From a virus: a stretch of DNA of 21,777 nt. A program made the translations under genes and the position numbers. The DNA is taken from the IMG/VR virus record IMGVR_UViG_3300018080_005748, positions 1 to 21,777 of that record, one strand, 5' to 3'. Each line of letters starts with the position of its first letter. Position 1 is the stretch's first letter. Positions 7,809-21,777 of this stretch are shown here, piece after piece. The notes below the pieces were generated by a model, which was given only the letters and a program-made list of their open reading frames with translations, did not search any database and was not told where the DNA came from.

Positions 7809-8732
7809 TCATTCCTCCTTATTGATAGCCTTTTCAGCTAGTTTGATGGCAGCTTTTTTCGTTGCCACTGTGCAAAAATGCCTTTTTTTGTGGATAAATT
7901 TGACACCTTCAGTCACAAGATCCTCACAATTCCAACTTGAAGGAATCTTCATCCGATACGCAATATTTGAATTTGGGTTAGCGGGGATTGATGAAATCTG
8001 CCATAAATCCCCATCTCCAGGTAAGACGACAAATTTTGCCTTACCCTTGAGCTCTGGTTTCTCTTCTTCAATATCAAATAGAGCTCGAATCCAAGGAATC
8101 CTAACATCAATTTCAATTATAGGGACTCCCCCTGCTCCAGACATAGCCTCTTCCACTACCTCTCTTGCTTTATATAAAGAAAGAGAGCGGCTTATTTCAT
8201 TTTGGAGGAAAATCTTGCAGATTGTCATTGCCTGTTCAAATCTCATATCCTCCTGCCCAGCCGAAATGTTCCAACTCGGAAGGAACGAACTTATAAACTT
8301 TTGAAACTTTAGGGATGCTCCGGGATAGAAATCCATTCCATTGTCATATATGTCAATGGGTTGAATTATTTCTTCATCGATTATGCCCCATACATAATTG
8401 ATTTCTTTTTCATCAACTGAAGTATATGAAAGAACTTCCTTGATGGTTTCTTTCCCAAAATGTTTCCATATTAGTCCAGTAGTTGAATATGGAATTCCTC
8501 GAGCTCCCTCTCTGATGGGGGAATCTTTCTGGTGATGATCAAACCGATTTCTGTACGGATCATAGACCATACCAATATCAAACACGACATCGGCATTATT
8601 AAACATCAATTCGTCTCTGGTCCGAGTTATTTGGACATCTTTATAGAGAGTTTTCAAAATTCCAGCAGAAAATACATCATCTGTATGGAATTTTCCATCG
8701 TGAGTAACTGCTTTTCTTATTTTTTTCTTCAT
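7809..8732 (-). CDS. MYG1/UPF0160-family metal-dependent hydrolase, 307 aa
   Basis: Family signatures are evident: THDGKFHTDDVFSAGIL at residues 9-25 (MYG1 form THNGxFHxDE), VVFDIGMVYDPYRNRFDHHQ about 49-68 (the VVDVGxVYDxxxxRYDHHQ metal motif), and the STTGLIWKHFG segment. The Asp/His pattern is related to DHH-superfamily phosphoesterases, and the eukaryotic member MYG1 has been described as an exonuclease. The length is close to that of cellular homologues, so it appears complete. The start follows GAAAGGAGATCACC. It heads a two-gene minus unit with its own promoter-like motif. In a phage it could process RNA or nucleotides; that role is inference. Confidence 0.85.
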   Translation of the reverse strand: MKKKIRKAVTHDGKFHTDDVFSAGILKTLYKDVQITRTRDELMFNNADVVFDIGMVYDPYRNRFDHHQKDSPIREGARGIPYSTTGLIWKHFGKETIKEVLSYTSVDEKEINYVWGIIDEEIIQPIDIYDNGMDFYPGASLKFQKFISSFLPSWNISAGQEDMRFEQAMTICKIFLQNEISRSLSLYKAREVVEEAMSGAGGVPIIEIDVRIPWIRALFDIEEEKPELKGKAKFVVLPGDGDLWQISSIPANPNSNIAYRMKIPSSWNCEDLVTEGVKFIHKKRHFCTVATKKAAIKLAEKAINKEE

Positions 8733-18936: not shown

Positions 18937-20997
18937 ATGTTCCAATGTGAATTATGTAAACGAGAATTTGATACCCTAACCAAATTGGTTTCTCATCTTA
19001 CCCATCCCAAATCTCAATGTAAAACCGATATAAAAGAATATTACAACCAATATTATCGGAAAGAAAATGAAGGTATATGTGTTTCGTGTGGAGCAGAAAC
19101 GAGATTTATAAGTCTTAGACATGGATATGGTGACACAAAATATTGCAAGAGATGTAAAAATTTAAATCCTGATACCCAAAAAAAAAGATCAAAACAAACC
19201 AAAGAGAAAAGAGAAAAAAAGAAGATCAACTCTGGATATTATGATCGAAAAGAAGTTTGTCAAATATGTGAAGAACGATTCAATTCTAGACATGGTCTAG
19301 CAAAACACATATGTCAAACCCACAAAGATGAAATTTCAGTTCAAGAATATTACGATAAATATTTCAAAAAAGAGAGCGAAGGAATTTGTCCTGAAACAGG
19401 TGAACCGACCAGATTTAAAAATATGATTGAGGGATATTTTAAGTTTAGTGGAAAAGGAACAAATTCAAAGTCAGACAAAACAAAAGAAAAGAAATTTAAA
19501 ACTCTGAGAAAAAACTATGGGGTTGATAATCCCATTTATGTTAATCCAGAAAATAGAATTAAAAAATATAAAGAAACCAGAGCTAAAGAAAGACAATTGA
19601 AAAAAATAGAGTCAGAATTAGAAACTCTTCAAAAAATAAGAACCATAGATGAAAATGACAAATTTCAATGTCAAATATGCGGTGAAGAATATAATAATTT
19701 AAAAAGTATCACGTCTCATATTATAAAAAACCATTCCTATTCCATAAAGGACTATTACGATAAATTTTTTAAAGGAGAGATTGAGGGAATATGCCCAATA
19801 TCAGGAAATCCAACAGTCTTTCATTCCTTATTGGTAGGATATCGAACATATGCAAAAGGTTATGCTCAAAAATCGGAGGAATTAATAGAACGAAATAAAC
19901 AATTAAATATAGAAAGAAATATTCAAAAAATTGTAGAAAAAGGAGAGGAGTTTGGAGTTGAGGTATTAAACATATATGATATTGGGAAGGTTTCAAAATT
20001 AATAAAATTCAGATGTTTGAAGTGTGGTACAATATATGAAAATAGATGGTATAATATCCAATTGAATTATGGGAAATGTCTAAAATGTCACCCAAGATTT
20101 ACTCATGTATCAAAGGGTGAAGAAGAAGTTTTCAACTTTATCAAAGAATCAATTAAAAATGAGCATGTTCACGGAAGTTATTTTGGTCTTATAAGAAGTC
20201 AGAAAACCGGAAGGCCCTTAGAACTTGATGTTTATATTCCATCGAGAAAATTAGCAATTGAATACAATGGAATTTATTGGCATTCAAGTGCTGTGAAAGA
20301 AGACCCGGTTAATTACCACCTTCATAAAACAGAAGAATGTGAAAAACTCGGAATACGGTTAATTCATATATTTGAAGATGAGTGGAAATATAAACAAGAA
20401 ATTGTAAAATCTAGGTTGGCAGCCATTATTGGATATACCAAAAATTTTAATCGAATTCATGCCAGAAAATGTACAATTCATAAAATAGATTCAAAAACTA
20501 AAAATACATTCCTCGAAGAAAACCATATTCAAGGTCCCGATGCATCCAAAATAAAACTCGGAGCTTTTTATAAAGATGAGTTGGTATCGGTTATGACTTT
20601 TGGGCATGGAAATATATCAAGGGGTGGAAAACCAGACCAGAAAAATATATGGGAACTCAGTCGATTTTGCTCAAAACTCAATCATATTATTCCGGGTATT
20701 GCTGGAAAATTTTTAAAATATTTTCAAAGAAATAATATTTGGACTGAAATATATAGTTACGCAGATCGAAGATGGTCTAATGGGCATCTGTATTTATCTC
20801 TTGGATTTAAATGTACAAATATATCTAGACCAAATTATTGGTATATTACCGAAACTGGAATTAAAAGAATTCATAGATTTAATTTACGGAAAAAACCAGA
20901 TGAACCAAAAGATATTCCTGAGTGGAAATTGAGATATGACCAAGGATTTCAACAAGTCTGGGATTGTGGAAATATAAGGTTTTCACTATATAAATAA
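18937..20997 (+). CDS. Free-standing homing endonuclease with repeated zinc fingers, 686 aa
   Basis: Start behind AAAGGGAGTTATAA. Three copies of a module, each a C2H2-like finger plus a YYDKYFKKESEGICPETGEP-type segment, occur at about residues 3-57, 108-163 and 244-297, followed by a CxxC...CxxC finger (about 362-392). The nuclease domain follows: LELDVYIPSRKLAIEYNGIY (Asp431, Glu442, Asn444-Gly), then WH, HKTEECEKLGIRLIHIFEDE and W, of the Vsr/EDxHD (I-Bth0305I-like) type. The end (KIKLGAFYKDELVSVMTFGH to LYLSLGFKCTNISRPNYWYI) looks like a GNAT-like accessory domain seen in phage homing proteins. All domains look intact. It likely cuts an intronless sheath allele or nearby DNA and spreads this locus; the target site is inferred. 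It has its own promoter-like motif and terminator. Confidence 0.8.
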   Translation: MFQCELCKREFDTLTKLVSHLTHPKSQCKTDIKEYYNQYYRKENEGICVSCGAETRFISLRHGYGDTKYCKRCKNLNPDTQKKRSKQTKEKREKKKINSGYYDRKEVCQICEERFNSRHGLAKHICQTHKDEISVQEYYDKYFKKESEGICPETGEPTRFKNMIEGYFKFSGKGTNSKSDKTKEKKFKTLRKNYGVDNPIYVNPENRIKKYKETRAKERQLKKIESELETLQKIRTIDENDKFQCQICGEEYNNLKSITSHIIKNHSYSIKDYYDKFFKGEIEGICPISGNPTVFHSLLVGYRTYAKGYAQKSEELIERNKQLNIERNIQKIVEKGEEFGVEVLNIYDIGKVSKLIKFRCLKCGTIYENRWYNIQLNYGKCLKCHPRFTHVSKGEEEVFNFIKESIKNEHVHGSYFGLIRSQKTGRPLELDVYIPSRKLAIEYNGIYWHSSAVKEDPVNYHLHKTEECEKLGIRLIHIFEDEWKYKQEIVKSRLAAIIGYTKNFNRIHARKCTIHKIDSKTKNTFLEENHIQGPDASKIKLGAFYKDELVSVMTFGHGNISRGGKPDQKNIWELSRFCSKLNHIIPGIAGKFLKYFQRNNIWTEIYSYADRRWSNGHLYLSLGFKCTNISRPNYWYITETGIKRIHRFNLRKKPDEPKDIPEWKLRYDQGFQQVWDCGNIRFSLYK

Positions 20998-21019: not shown

Positions 21020-21057
21020 GGATCGGGGGAAGTCAAATCCCCCGATCCTCTTTTTTT
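21020..21057. terminator. Strong terminator between convergent genes
   Basis: GGATCGGGGG (21020-21029) pairs with CCCCCGATCC (21039-21048), followed by TCTTTTTTT and CGTTG. An A8 run (21000-21007) precedes it. The minus gene ends at 21065 just beyond the CGTTG. Confidence 0.85.
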
Positions 21058-21064
21058 CGTTGAT

Positions 21065-21388
21065 TTAATCTTTTATCAACACTTCCTCAAGAAGTTTATA
21101 CTTTGGAAGATATTGGTCAACATATCCTTCCTGTAGACTTGTAACACATTGATCTCTGATTTTTCTCATTTCAAATCCAGACTCAGAGATCATGTATTCC
21201 ATTCCTCTTTCGAAGGCTCGAATGGCCAAGGTTTTCAAAAGTTCTAGGTCCGATCCCTTCGGTACATCGATCAAAAAACAATTGATCTCTGAATTGCTTG
21301 AGACCAATTGTAATGAGGTTTTGTTTTTCAGGTATGTAAAGTCTTCGGATCTGTCGATCCATTTTAAATAAATATATTCATTCTTCAT
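21065..21388 (-). CDS. Hypothetical protein, 107 aa
   Basis: The minus-strand ATG follows AAGGAGACATCCATA, and the AAGGAG overlaps the stop codon of the Ser/Arg-repeat gene upstream, so the two are coupled. The protein is a small soluble alpha/beta chain (EYIYLKWIDRSEDFTYLKNK, NCFLIDVPKGSDLELLKTLA, RAFERGMEYMISESGFEMRK) with a charged helical C-terminus. No catalytic motif or family is recognised. It is the last gene of a minus operon whose promoter lies outside the window. Confidence 0.65.
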   Translation of the reverse strand: MKNEYIYLKWIDRSEDFTYLKNKTSLQLVSSNSEINCFLIDVPKGSDLELLKTLAIRAFERGMEYMISESGFEMRKIRDQCVTSLQEGYVDQYLPKYKLLEEVLIKD

Positions 21389-21401
21389 TATGGATGTCTC
21401 C

Positions 21402-21569
21402 TTATATGGTATTCGACCACGACCTTGACCACGACCTTGACACCGACCCCGACCTTGACCACGACCCCGACCTTGACCACAACCACGACCTTGACCCCGA
21501 CCTTGACCCCGACCACGACCTTGACCCCGACCTAAGCCTCGACGATTTTCTGTAAGATGTTATTTTCAT
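21402..21569 (-). CDS. Ser/Arg-repeat micro-protein, 55 aa
   Basis: The minus-strand ATG (21567-21569) has GTAGGAGTG six bases upstream. It encodes MKITSYRKSSRLRSGSRSWS, then Gly/Ser/Arg/Trp dipeptide repeats (GSRSGSRSWLWS...) to a SNTI end. The repeat part is coded by the hexamer array 21415-21532, with every second residue Ser. RS-dipeptide tracts in eukaryotes and viruses bind RNA and are regulated by phosphorylation; nothing similar is known to me in phages, so function is open. Translation is supported by the good ribosome site, a unique N-terminus and the coupling of its stop to the next ribosome site. The gene might instead be an accident of repeat DNA. Confidence 0.5.
   Translation of the reverse strand: MKITSYRKSSRLRSGSRSWSGSRSGSRSWLWSRSGSWSRSGSVSRSWSRSWSNTI
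21415..21532. repeat. GACCNN hexamer array 1
   Basis: About twenty units of GACC followed mostly by AC, TT or CC, arranged without a strict higher period, with GACCTT and GACCCC alternating with GACCAC. The hexamer period preserves frame, so the minus strand stays open. It codes the repeat part of the Ser/Arg-repeat gene. Confidence 0.9.
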
Positions 21570-21583
21570 TTTAACACTCCTAC

Positions 21584-21777
21584 TTAACTCTCCGACCACG
21601 ACCTTGACCTTGACCACGACCTTGACCTTGACCCCGACCTTGACCACGACACCGACCTTGACCACAACCACGACCACAACCACGACCTTGACCCCGACCA
21701 CGACCTTGACCCCGACCTTGACCCCGACCACGACCTTGACCCCGACCTTGACCCCGACCACGACCTTGACCCCGACC
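21584..21777 (-). CDS. Second Ser/Arg-repeat gene, 3' part only (partial)
   Basis: One minus-strand frame is open from the window edge to a TAA at 21586-21584 and encodes SGSRSWSGSRSGSRSWSGSR and onward to SWLWSWLWS and a SES end. This shares the SGSRSW and SWLWS pattern with the 55-aa gene in the same repeat frame, which makes it the likely paralogue. The other minus frames would read Gly/Arg/Gln (stop at 21580-21582) or Val/Lys/Gly repeats. The start lies outside the window, so length is unknown. The 55-aa gene starts 15 bases beyond its stop. Confidence 0.4.
   Translation of the reverse strand, partial: SGSRSWSGSRSGSRSWSGSRSGSRSWSGSRSWLWSWLWSRSVSWSRSGSRSRSWSRSRSWSES
21594..21777. repeat. 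GACCNN hexamer array 2 (continues past the window edge)
   Basis: About thirty units of the same hexamer family as array 1, interrupted by ACAACC and ACACCG variants, running to the last base. The two arrays are separated by a 61-base unique segment that carries the start of the 55-aa gene. Confidence 0.9.

Follow-up and report, generated by a model that had tools for sequence, protein, structure and literature searches.

Ser-[Gly/Arg/Trp] repeat micro-genes at a phage contig end belong to an apparently undescribed family usually coupled to genes for proteins with a predicted Sm-like fold

Background

Among Sm proteins, SmB, SmD1 and SmD3 carry Arg/Gly-rich tails, and a crystal structure is available for an Sm-like protein of putative cyanophage origin. 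The phage gene pair described here resembles the Sm/LSm proteins in the predicted fold of one partner and in the association of an Arg-rich low-complexity tail with an Sm-fold body, but the pair has no significant sequence similarity to them, and its tail is a separate open reading frame (ORF) in which Ser alternates with a second residue, X, that is Trp in one third of cases. Hfq, a bacterial Sm-fold protein, has a disordered C-terminal domain, and the tail of Escherichia coli Hfq lies in the same chain and is acidic at its tip (PMC5606850). The phage pair is like Hfq in that an Sm-fold protein is predicted to work with a disordered tail, and unlike it in that this tail is separate and basic and that the partner matches neither the Hfq nor the LSM profile.

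SR proteins and the RS tracts of viral nucleocapsids are likewise basic and likely disordered, with Ser partly alternating with Arg. In the phage proteins, however, X is Gly, Arg or Trp in near-equal shares, an RRM is lacking and the entire protein consists of a head and the repeat. An earlier note on this locus had compared its Ser/Arg/Gly/Trp dipeptide repeats with the RS-dipeptide tracts of eukaryotic RNA-binding proteins and viral nucleocapsids; a likeness to the RS tract of SR proteins was not supported, the repeat being (S[G/R/W])n with Gly and Trp as frequent as Arg.

The open literature searched yielded no description of repeats of this type, nor of a comparable Sm-like partner in phages. 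The parts, an Sm fold and Arg-rich disordered tails, are familiar, but no system is known to us in which a phage protein of predicted Sm fold is coupled to a separately encoded Ser-[Gly/Arg/Trp] tail of random order. The micro-gene family is widespread in phages and apparently undescribed, and neither gene is in the family libraries searched, though one scan gave 466 loci of one branch of the partner (type A).

Hexamer arrays and micro-genes of the window

The window (the whole 21,777-nt stretch of viral DNA that was analysed) ends inside a hexamer array that is read on the minus strand as two micro-genes. The features are as follows.

21414-21777: whole hexamer array, TRF score 186
21413-21533: hexamer array 1, a TRF sub-array, GACCNN on the plus strand and TCNNGG on the minus strand
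21593-21777: hexamer array 2, a TRF sub-array that runs past the contig end
21584-21777, minus strand: micro-gene 2, the upstream copy, 63 aa visible, 5'-end lost at the contig end
21577-21581, minus strand: ribosome site AGGAG of micro-gene 1, with GGAG at 21577-21580, 7 nt ahead of the ATG
21402-21569, minus strand: micro-gene 1, 55 aa, head MKITSYRKSSRLR followed by (Ser-[Gly/Arg/Trp])n, ATG at 21569 and TAA at 21404-21402
21398-21404, minus strand: TAAGGAG, the stop of micro-gene 1 fused with the ribosome site of a 107-aa gene
21065-21388, minus strand: the 107-aa gene behind the micro-genes; relatives were searched for and none was detected
21020-21048: terminator-like inverted repeat of 11 pairs between a homing endonuclease gene and the 107-aa gene, T run on the plus strand

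The window contains 44 [GA]ACCNN units in runs, with NN being TT in 17, AC in 14, CC in 12 and TA in one. The Ser wobble base is tied to the variable base (TCA-AGG, TCG-TGG and TCG-GGG), and TT, AC and CC specify AGG, TGG and GGG at X; CGG is absent, leaving Gly, Trp and a single NGG codon for Arg. The window array is a variant of a pattern in which one position takes exactly three bases and the rest are fixed.

The product of micro-gene 1 begins MKITSYRKSSRLRSGSRSWSG, ends SNTI and has a net charge of +12. TRF and the ORFs confirmed the two GACCNN arrays and their minus-strand reading as micro-genes, both claimed in the earlier note, and the unique head, ribosome site and stop fused to the next ribosome site that it ascribed to the first gene are all present in the sequence. 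The TAA of micro-gene 2 stands directly ahead of the AGGAG of micro-gene 1. As had been proposed, this second gene shares the orders SGSRSW and SWLWS with the first; it is 5'-truncated, the contig end having removed its start. The 55-aa ORF has a non-repeat head and (S[GRW])n up to the stop, written in TCn/AGy-NGG codons, and the window micro-genes are very probably members of the family characterised below. A search of IMG/VR for the exact head MKITSYRK returned 8 ORFs, all unrelated.

Hexamer arrays in other phage contigs

Scanning IMG/VR for runs of GACCNN, a search biased to GACC, gave at least 120 loci. The reversed motif CCAGNN, scanned as a control, likewise gave at least 120: hexamer arrays by themselves are no rarity among phage contigs. 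The two kinds of array differ in other respects: among the matches listed, the median length was 13 units for GACCNN and 8 for the control, and a single position with exactly three bases was seen in 53/63 long GACCNN arrays versus 0/21 long control arrays. At most of the listed GACCNN loci, NN combines one fixed base with three of the four bases at the variable position. The listed arrays read as TCn-NGG, specifying Ser-(Gly/Trp/Arg), and lie in short ORFs, each bounded by a start and a stop and opening with a short head that has no repeat. Hundreds of loci carry a Ser-X micro-gene, and the gene type is therefore not confined to the phage of the window.

Composition and selection of the micro-proteins

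The 205 distinct relatives, which are from uncultured phages, each comprise a short head of roughly 8-15 aa and (Ser-X)n, with X being Gly, Arg or Trp, and have a median length of 65 aa. Their charge is basic (median +9 to +11), and the tail is of low complexity; we infer it to be disordered. Over the arrays, X is Gly 1477 times, Arg 1344 times and Trp 1212 times, and adjacent X residues are independent of each other (observed/expected 0.94-1.05). The micro-protein is kept by composition, and the order of X is random.

The dominant Ser codon in arrays of at least 8 units (of the 205 distinct) is TCG in 98, TCT in 47, TCA in 30, AGC in 14, TCC in 2 and AGT in 1. It is close to uniform within each array and follows genome GC, phages that use TCA/TCT differing from those that use TCG/TCC (p = 1.3e-17). 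The variable position takes G, T and just one of A or C in 150/165 arrays, which gives Gly, Trp and one Arg codon, and the rarest variable base is A or C in all arrays but one (binomial p 3.5e-48, with arrays treated as independent). Composition is stable across the four main Ser codon families in the Ser frame only, with a cosine of 1.00 versus 0.41-0.61 in the six-frame comparison, by which the antisense and other reading frames were ruled out as coding; several of the non-Ser frames contain stops. From phage to phage the Ser codon family changes but the residues do not, so conservation is at the level of the protein and not of the DNA.

Where near-identical relatives differ in length (28 non-zero differences), they always do so by a multiple of 6 nt, in a set of pairs that are not mutually independent and in which both members were required to have an intact Ser frame. 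This agrees with the earlier proposal that hexamer slippage alters length without loss of frame, and out-of-frame variation of the arrays, which the same proposal had set against its own reading, was not found. The pN/pS ratios of the heads (0.27 and 0.18), together with retention of the Ser frame, also bear out selection at the protein level, and there is hardly any doubt that a translated micro-protein is under selection.

Selfish or structural repeat DNA, in which the array would serve as a signal for recombination or packaging and the reading frame would be open by chance, would accommodate both the growth and shrinkage by hexamer units and a wobble base that is near-uniform within a phage. 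It is already contradicted by the change of the DNA motif from TCN to AGY between phages with the Ser-frame residues unchanged, on which ground a DNA element was ruled out. The purifying selection on the heads, the retention of Gly, Trp and exactly one Arg codon, and the position of the array directly behind the partner gene likewise make this explanation extremely unlikely.

The composition and random order mark the micro-protein as a natural, very simple low-complexity protein that is held by selection on composition alone. Random order and length changes in hexamer steps offer a direct test of how disordered proteins function without conserved sequence. In L176/L177, the repeat tail is interrupted by an in-frame non-repeat insert, HTFLSPLWGVANFG.

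The coupled partner gene

The partner gene encodes an acidic protein (pI about 4.9-5.0) of 90-115 aa, here called the barrel, which falls into two branches. Type A has the motif pattern ..IRTVT..TG..LVLEDAAWIADTGRF..NEVEPFP.. and type B ..LLGERVTLFC.NYIYTGKL.GVN..C..L.DA.IVYETG..; a profile comparison identified them as homologous (E 1.4e-9). Behind type A the usual head of the micro-protein is MNAAILRTGFD, and behind type B it is usually basic (e.g. MRGLKQKYRS).

Among the listed array loci, a partner gene lies directly upstream in 52/66 G/W/R arrays with enough upstream sequence, versus 3/14 arrays without that mix (p = 8e-5), and none was present at the 116 CCAGNN control loci among the matches listed. 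Searches with the partner only, which favour no hexamer, gave 466 loci (79 kept) for type A, with a two-pattern search, and 85 loci (80 kept) for type B, with a single type B protein as the query. A micro-gene begins between -30 and +120 nt from the partner stop in 231/248 partner genes. The start is conserved in relatives, as expected from the earlier note, lying exactly 4 nt inside the upstream stop (-4 nt, ATGA) in 130 of these 231. Barrel and tail were never fused as a single ORF (0/248). The coding of the micro-gene and its pairing with the partner are strongly supported. Both module genes also occur in MW202573.1 (uncultured Caudoviricetes, Manatee Spring), where UOF78857.1 and UOF78858.1 overlap by 4 nt and are annotated as hypothetical; that module differs from the window in that its micro-gene is the only one and has a type A head (MNAAIIRAGLDAS). 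In INPHARED, only two records matched the two partner queries.

The pairing has exceptions. No micro-gene accompanies 17 of the 248 partner genes, 12 of them in partner-only loci, with three of those 12 at contig ends. Conversely, 14 of the 66 testable G/W/R arrays listed have no barrel directly upstream, and other genes occupy that position in L074/L102, L103 and L116. L074, L102 and L105 share the head MIKKSIYKxxI behind a different upstream gene (for a 113-aa protein in L074/L102) and have no recognisable barrel. In L164, L166 (behind 4345) and L211, the position at -4 nt behind the barrel gene is taken by an unrelated gene in place of the repeat micro-gene.

Tandem micro-genes were found in 39/276 distinct locus/strand sets, with up to 8 in succession and mostly with 4-nt overlaps, and the two copies in the window fit this arrangement. 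Long trains with near-identical heads are present in L006, L052 and L019, and L006 alone has 15 micro-gene ORFs.

No barrel gene is present elsewhere in the 21,777-nt window, and the contig stops inside the upstream micro-gene, presumably the reason that no Sm-like gene is visible. The head of the window micro-gene resembles those of L002 and L034, both of which are located behind a type B barrel. Given this likeness and the 52/66 rate, a gene for the Sm-fold partner probably lies past the contig end.

The opposite charges of the two products and the stop-start coupling of their genes, whose order is one often seen in pairs of this type, would suit a toxin and its neutraliser, with a basic Arg/Trp micro-protein that harms the host being restrained by the acidic barrel as in a toxin-antitoxin or host shut-off pair; the accessory distribution of the module points the same way. 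However, micro-genes have multiplied into tandem rows of up to 8 without additional barrel genes, and some have no barrel directly upstream. PADLOC gave no match of note for type B and the micro-protein has no folded toxin domain, so that a pair of this kind appears rather unlikely.

Predicted fold of the partner

AlphaFold2 models of the barrel have a mean pLDDT of 94.2 for type B and 89.7 for type A. Foldseek matched the type B model best to PDB chains of which almost all are spliceosomal Sm, LSm or archaeal Sm (best E 3.8e-4, TM about 0.55-0.65), and the type A model gives the same, weaker picture (best E 1.4e-3). The partner is therefore predicted to have an Sm/LSm-like fold, as a resemblance and not as proven membership. 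A PDB sequence search revealed no relation of the barrel to Sm/LSm, hhalign against 20 archaeal LSM was not significant, and Pfam scans assigned the partner to no family. Matches in PHROGs were marginal and scattered for both barrel and micro-proteins, and Pfam had none for the window micro-protein, including RRM.

The MM0924 family (NCBIfam NF041655) is matched weakly by 29/62 type B barrels (best E 8.5e-4), below the curated cut-off, the first member scoring 18.3 bits versus a cut-off of 45. Among Sm-fold viral proteins in BFVD, the 'RNA binding protein' of Gordonia phage Reyja and the DUF6948 phage proteins are similar in fold to the type B barrel, but identity is ~14% and E-values are weak. 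The predicted fold fits the RNA binding hinted at previously without proving it, and would suggest a phage ribonucleoprotein-like device, formally like the Sm proteins with their Arg-rich tails.

Neighbouring genes and possible function

Genes for ERF, YqaJ, AAA_24, DUF669, DUF3799 and the ResIII and SNF2 helicases recur near the module, none of them constantly. These are recombination and replication genes of early-gene type.

Composition, charge, coupling, predicted fold and neighbours together suggest, with about an even chance of being right, that the micro-protein is a basic sticker-and-spacer tail that acts on nucleic acid, RNA being the likeliest, together with the acidic Sm-fold partner. 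Arg and Trp would be the stickers, through charge, cation-pi contacts and stacking, and Ser and Gly the spacers, with selection acting on the composition of the tail and not on its order. The tail would bind the nucleic acid jointly with the partner, either as the tail of an Sm-type assembly, detached from its body, or as a component that forms condensates, and the module would probably act early in infection. A more specific form of this proposal can be put forward only tentatively: the Sm-fold protein and its separate Ser/Gly/Arg/Trp disordered 'tail', selected for composition only, may be an snRNP-like two-component device of tailed phages. This device would build RNA-protein assemblies or condensates inside infected cells, and its evolution would proceed by expansion in hexamer steps, the order being random.

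The charge of about +9 to +11 and the recombination and replication neighbours (ERF, YqaJ, DUF669, helicases) could also be expected of a protamine-like protein that would compact or protect the DNA of phage or host, with intercalating Trp and with the Sm-fold protein as a DNA- and not an RNA-binding partner. Protamines, however, are far richer in Arg than the micro-proteins, in which it is about one residue in six, and no DNA-binding domain was recognised; DNA coating is unlikely. A membrane-active or lysis peptide would share the cationic, Trp/Arg-rich composition, but a hydrophobic segment is absent, the order is near-random, and the genes are mostly found among replication and recombination genes and coupled to a soluble-looking barrel, which makes such a role very unlikely.

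Distribution of the module and surroundings in the window

Among the genomes of 84,980 species, type A was detected in 12, all of them bacterial or archaeal MAGs of mixed phyla, and in 1/294 genomes of the phylum of one such MAG. With matches so scattered, no host was named.

Several contigs (L127, L129, L135, L147, L151, L153 and others) stop ~70-120 nt past the barrel stop, inside the micro-gene. Short-read assembly apparently tends to fail at the repeats, and phage catalogues therefore probably contain too few of these genes.

In the window, the module is on the strand opposite to the tail sheath gene, behind a homing endonuclease gene and the terminator-like inverted repeat, and no replication genes adjoin it. 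The records of tail-sheath relatives of the window (L212-L224, partly fragments) show neither the array nor a type B barrel, and the module thus looks accessory.

Two other genes of the window encode recognisable proteins. Positions 7809-8732 (minus strand) encode a 307-aa MYG1-family protein (Pfam MYG1_exonuc, E 2.6e-64), unusual for a phage fragment with tail genes. The gene at 18937-20997 (plus strand), which adjoins the tail sheath gene, predicts a 686-aa homing-endonuclease-like protein (PHROG 3339) that matches C2H2-type zinc fingers and, weakly and at its C-terminus, Mom.
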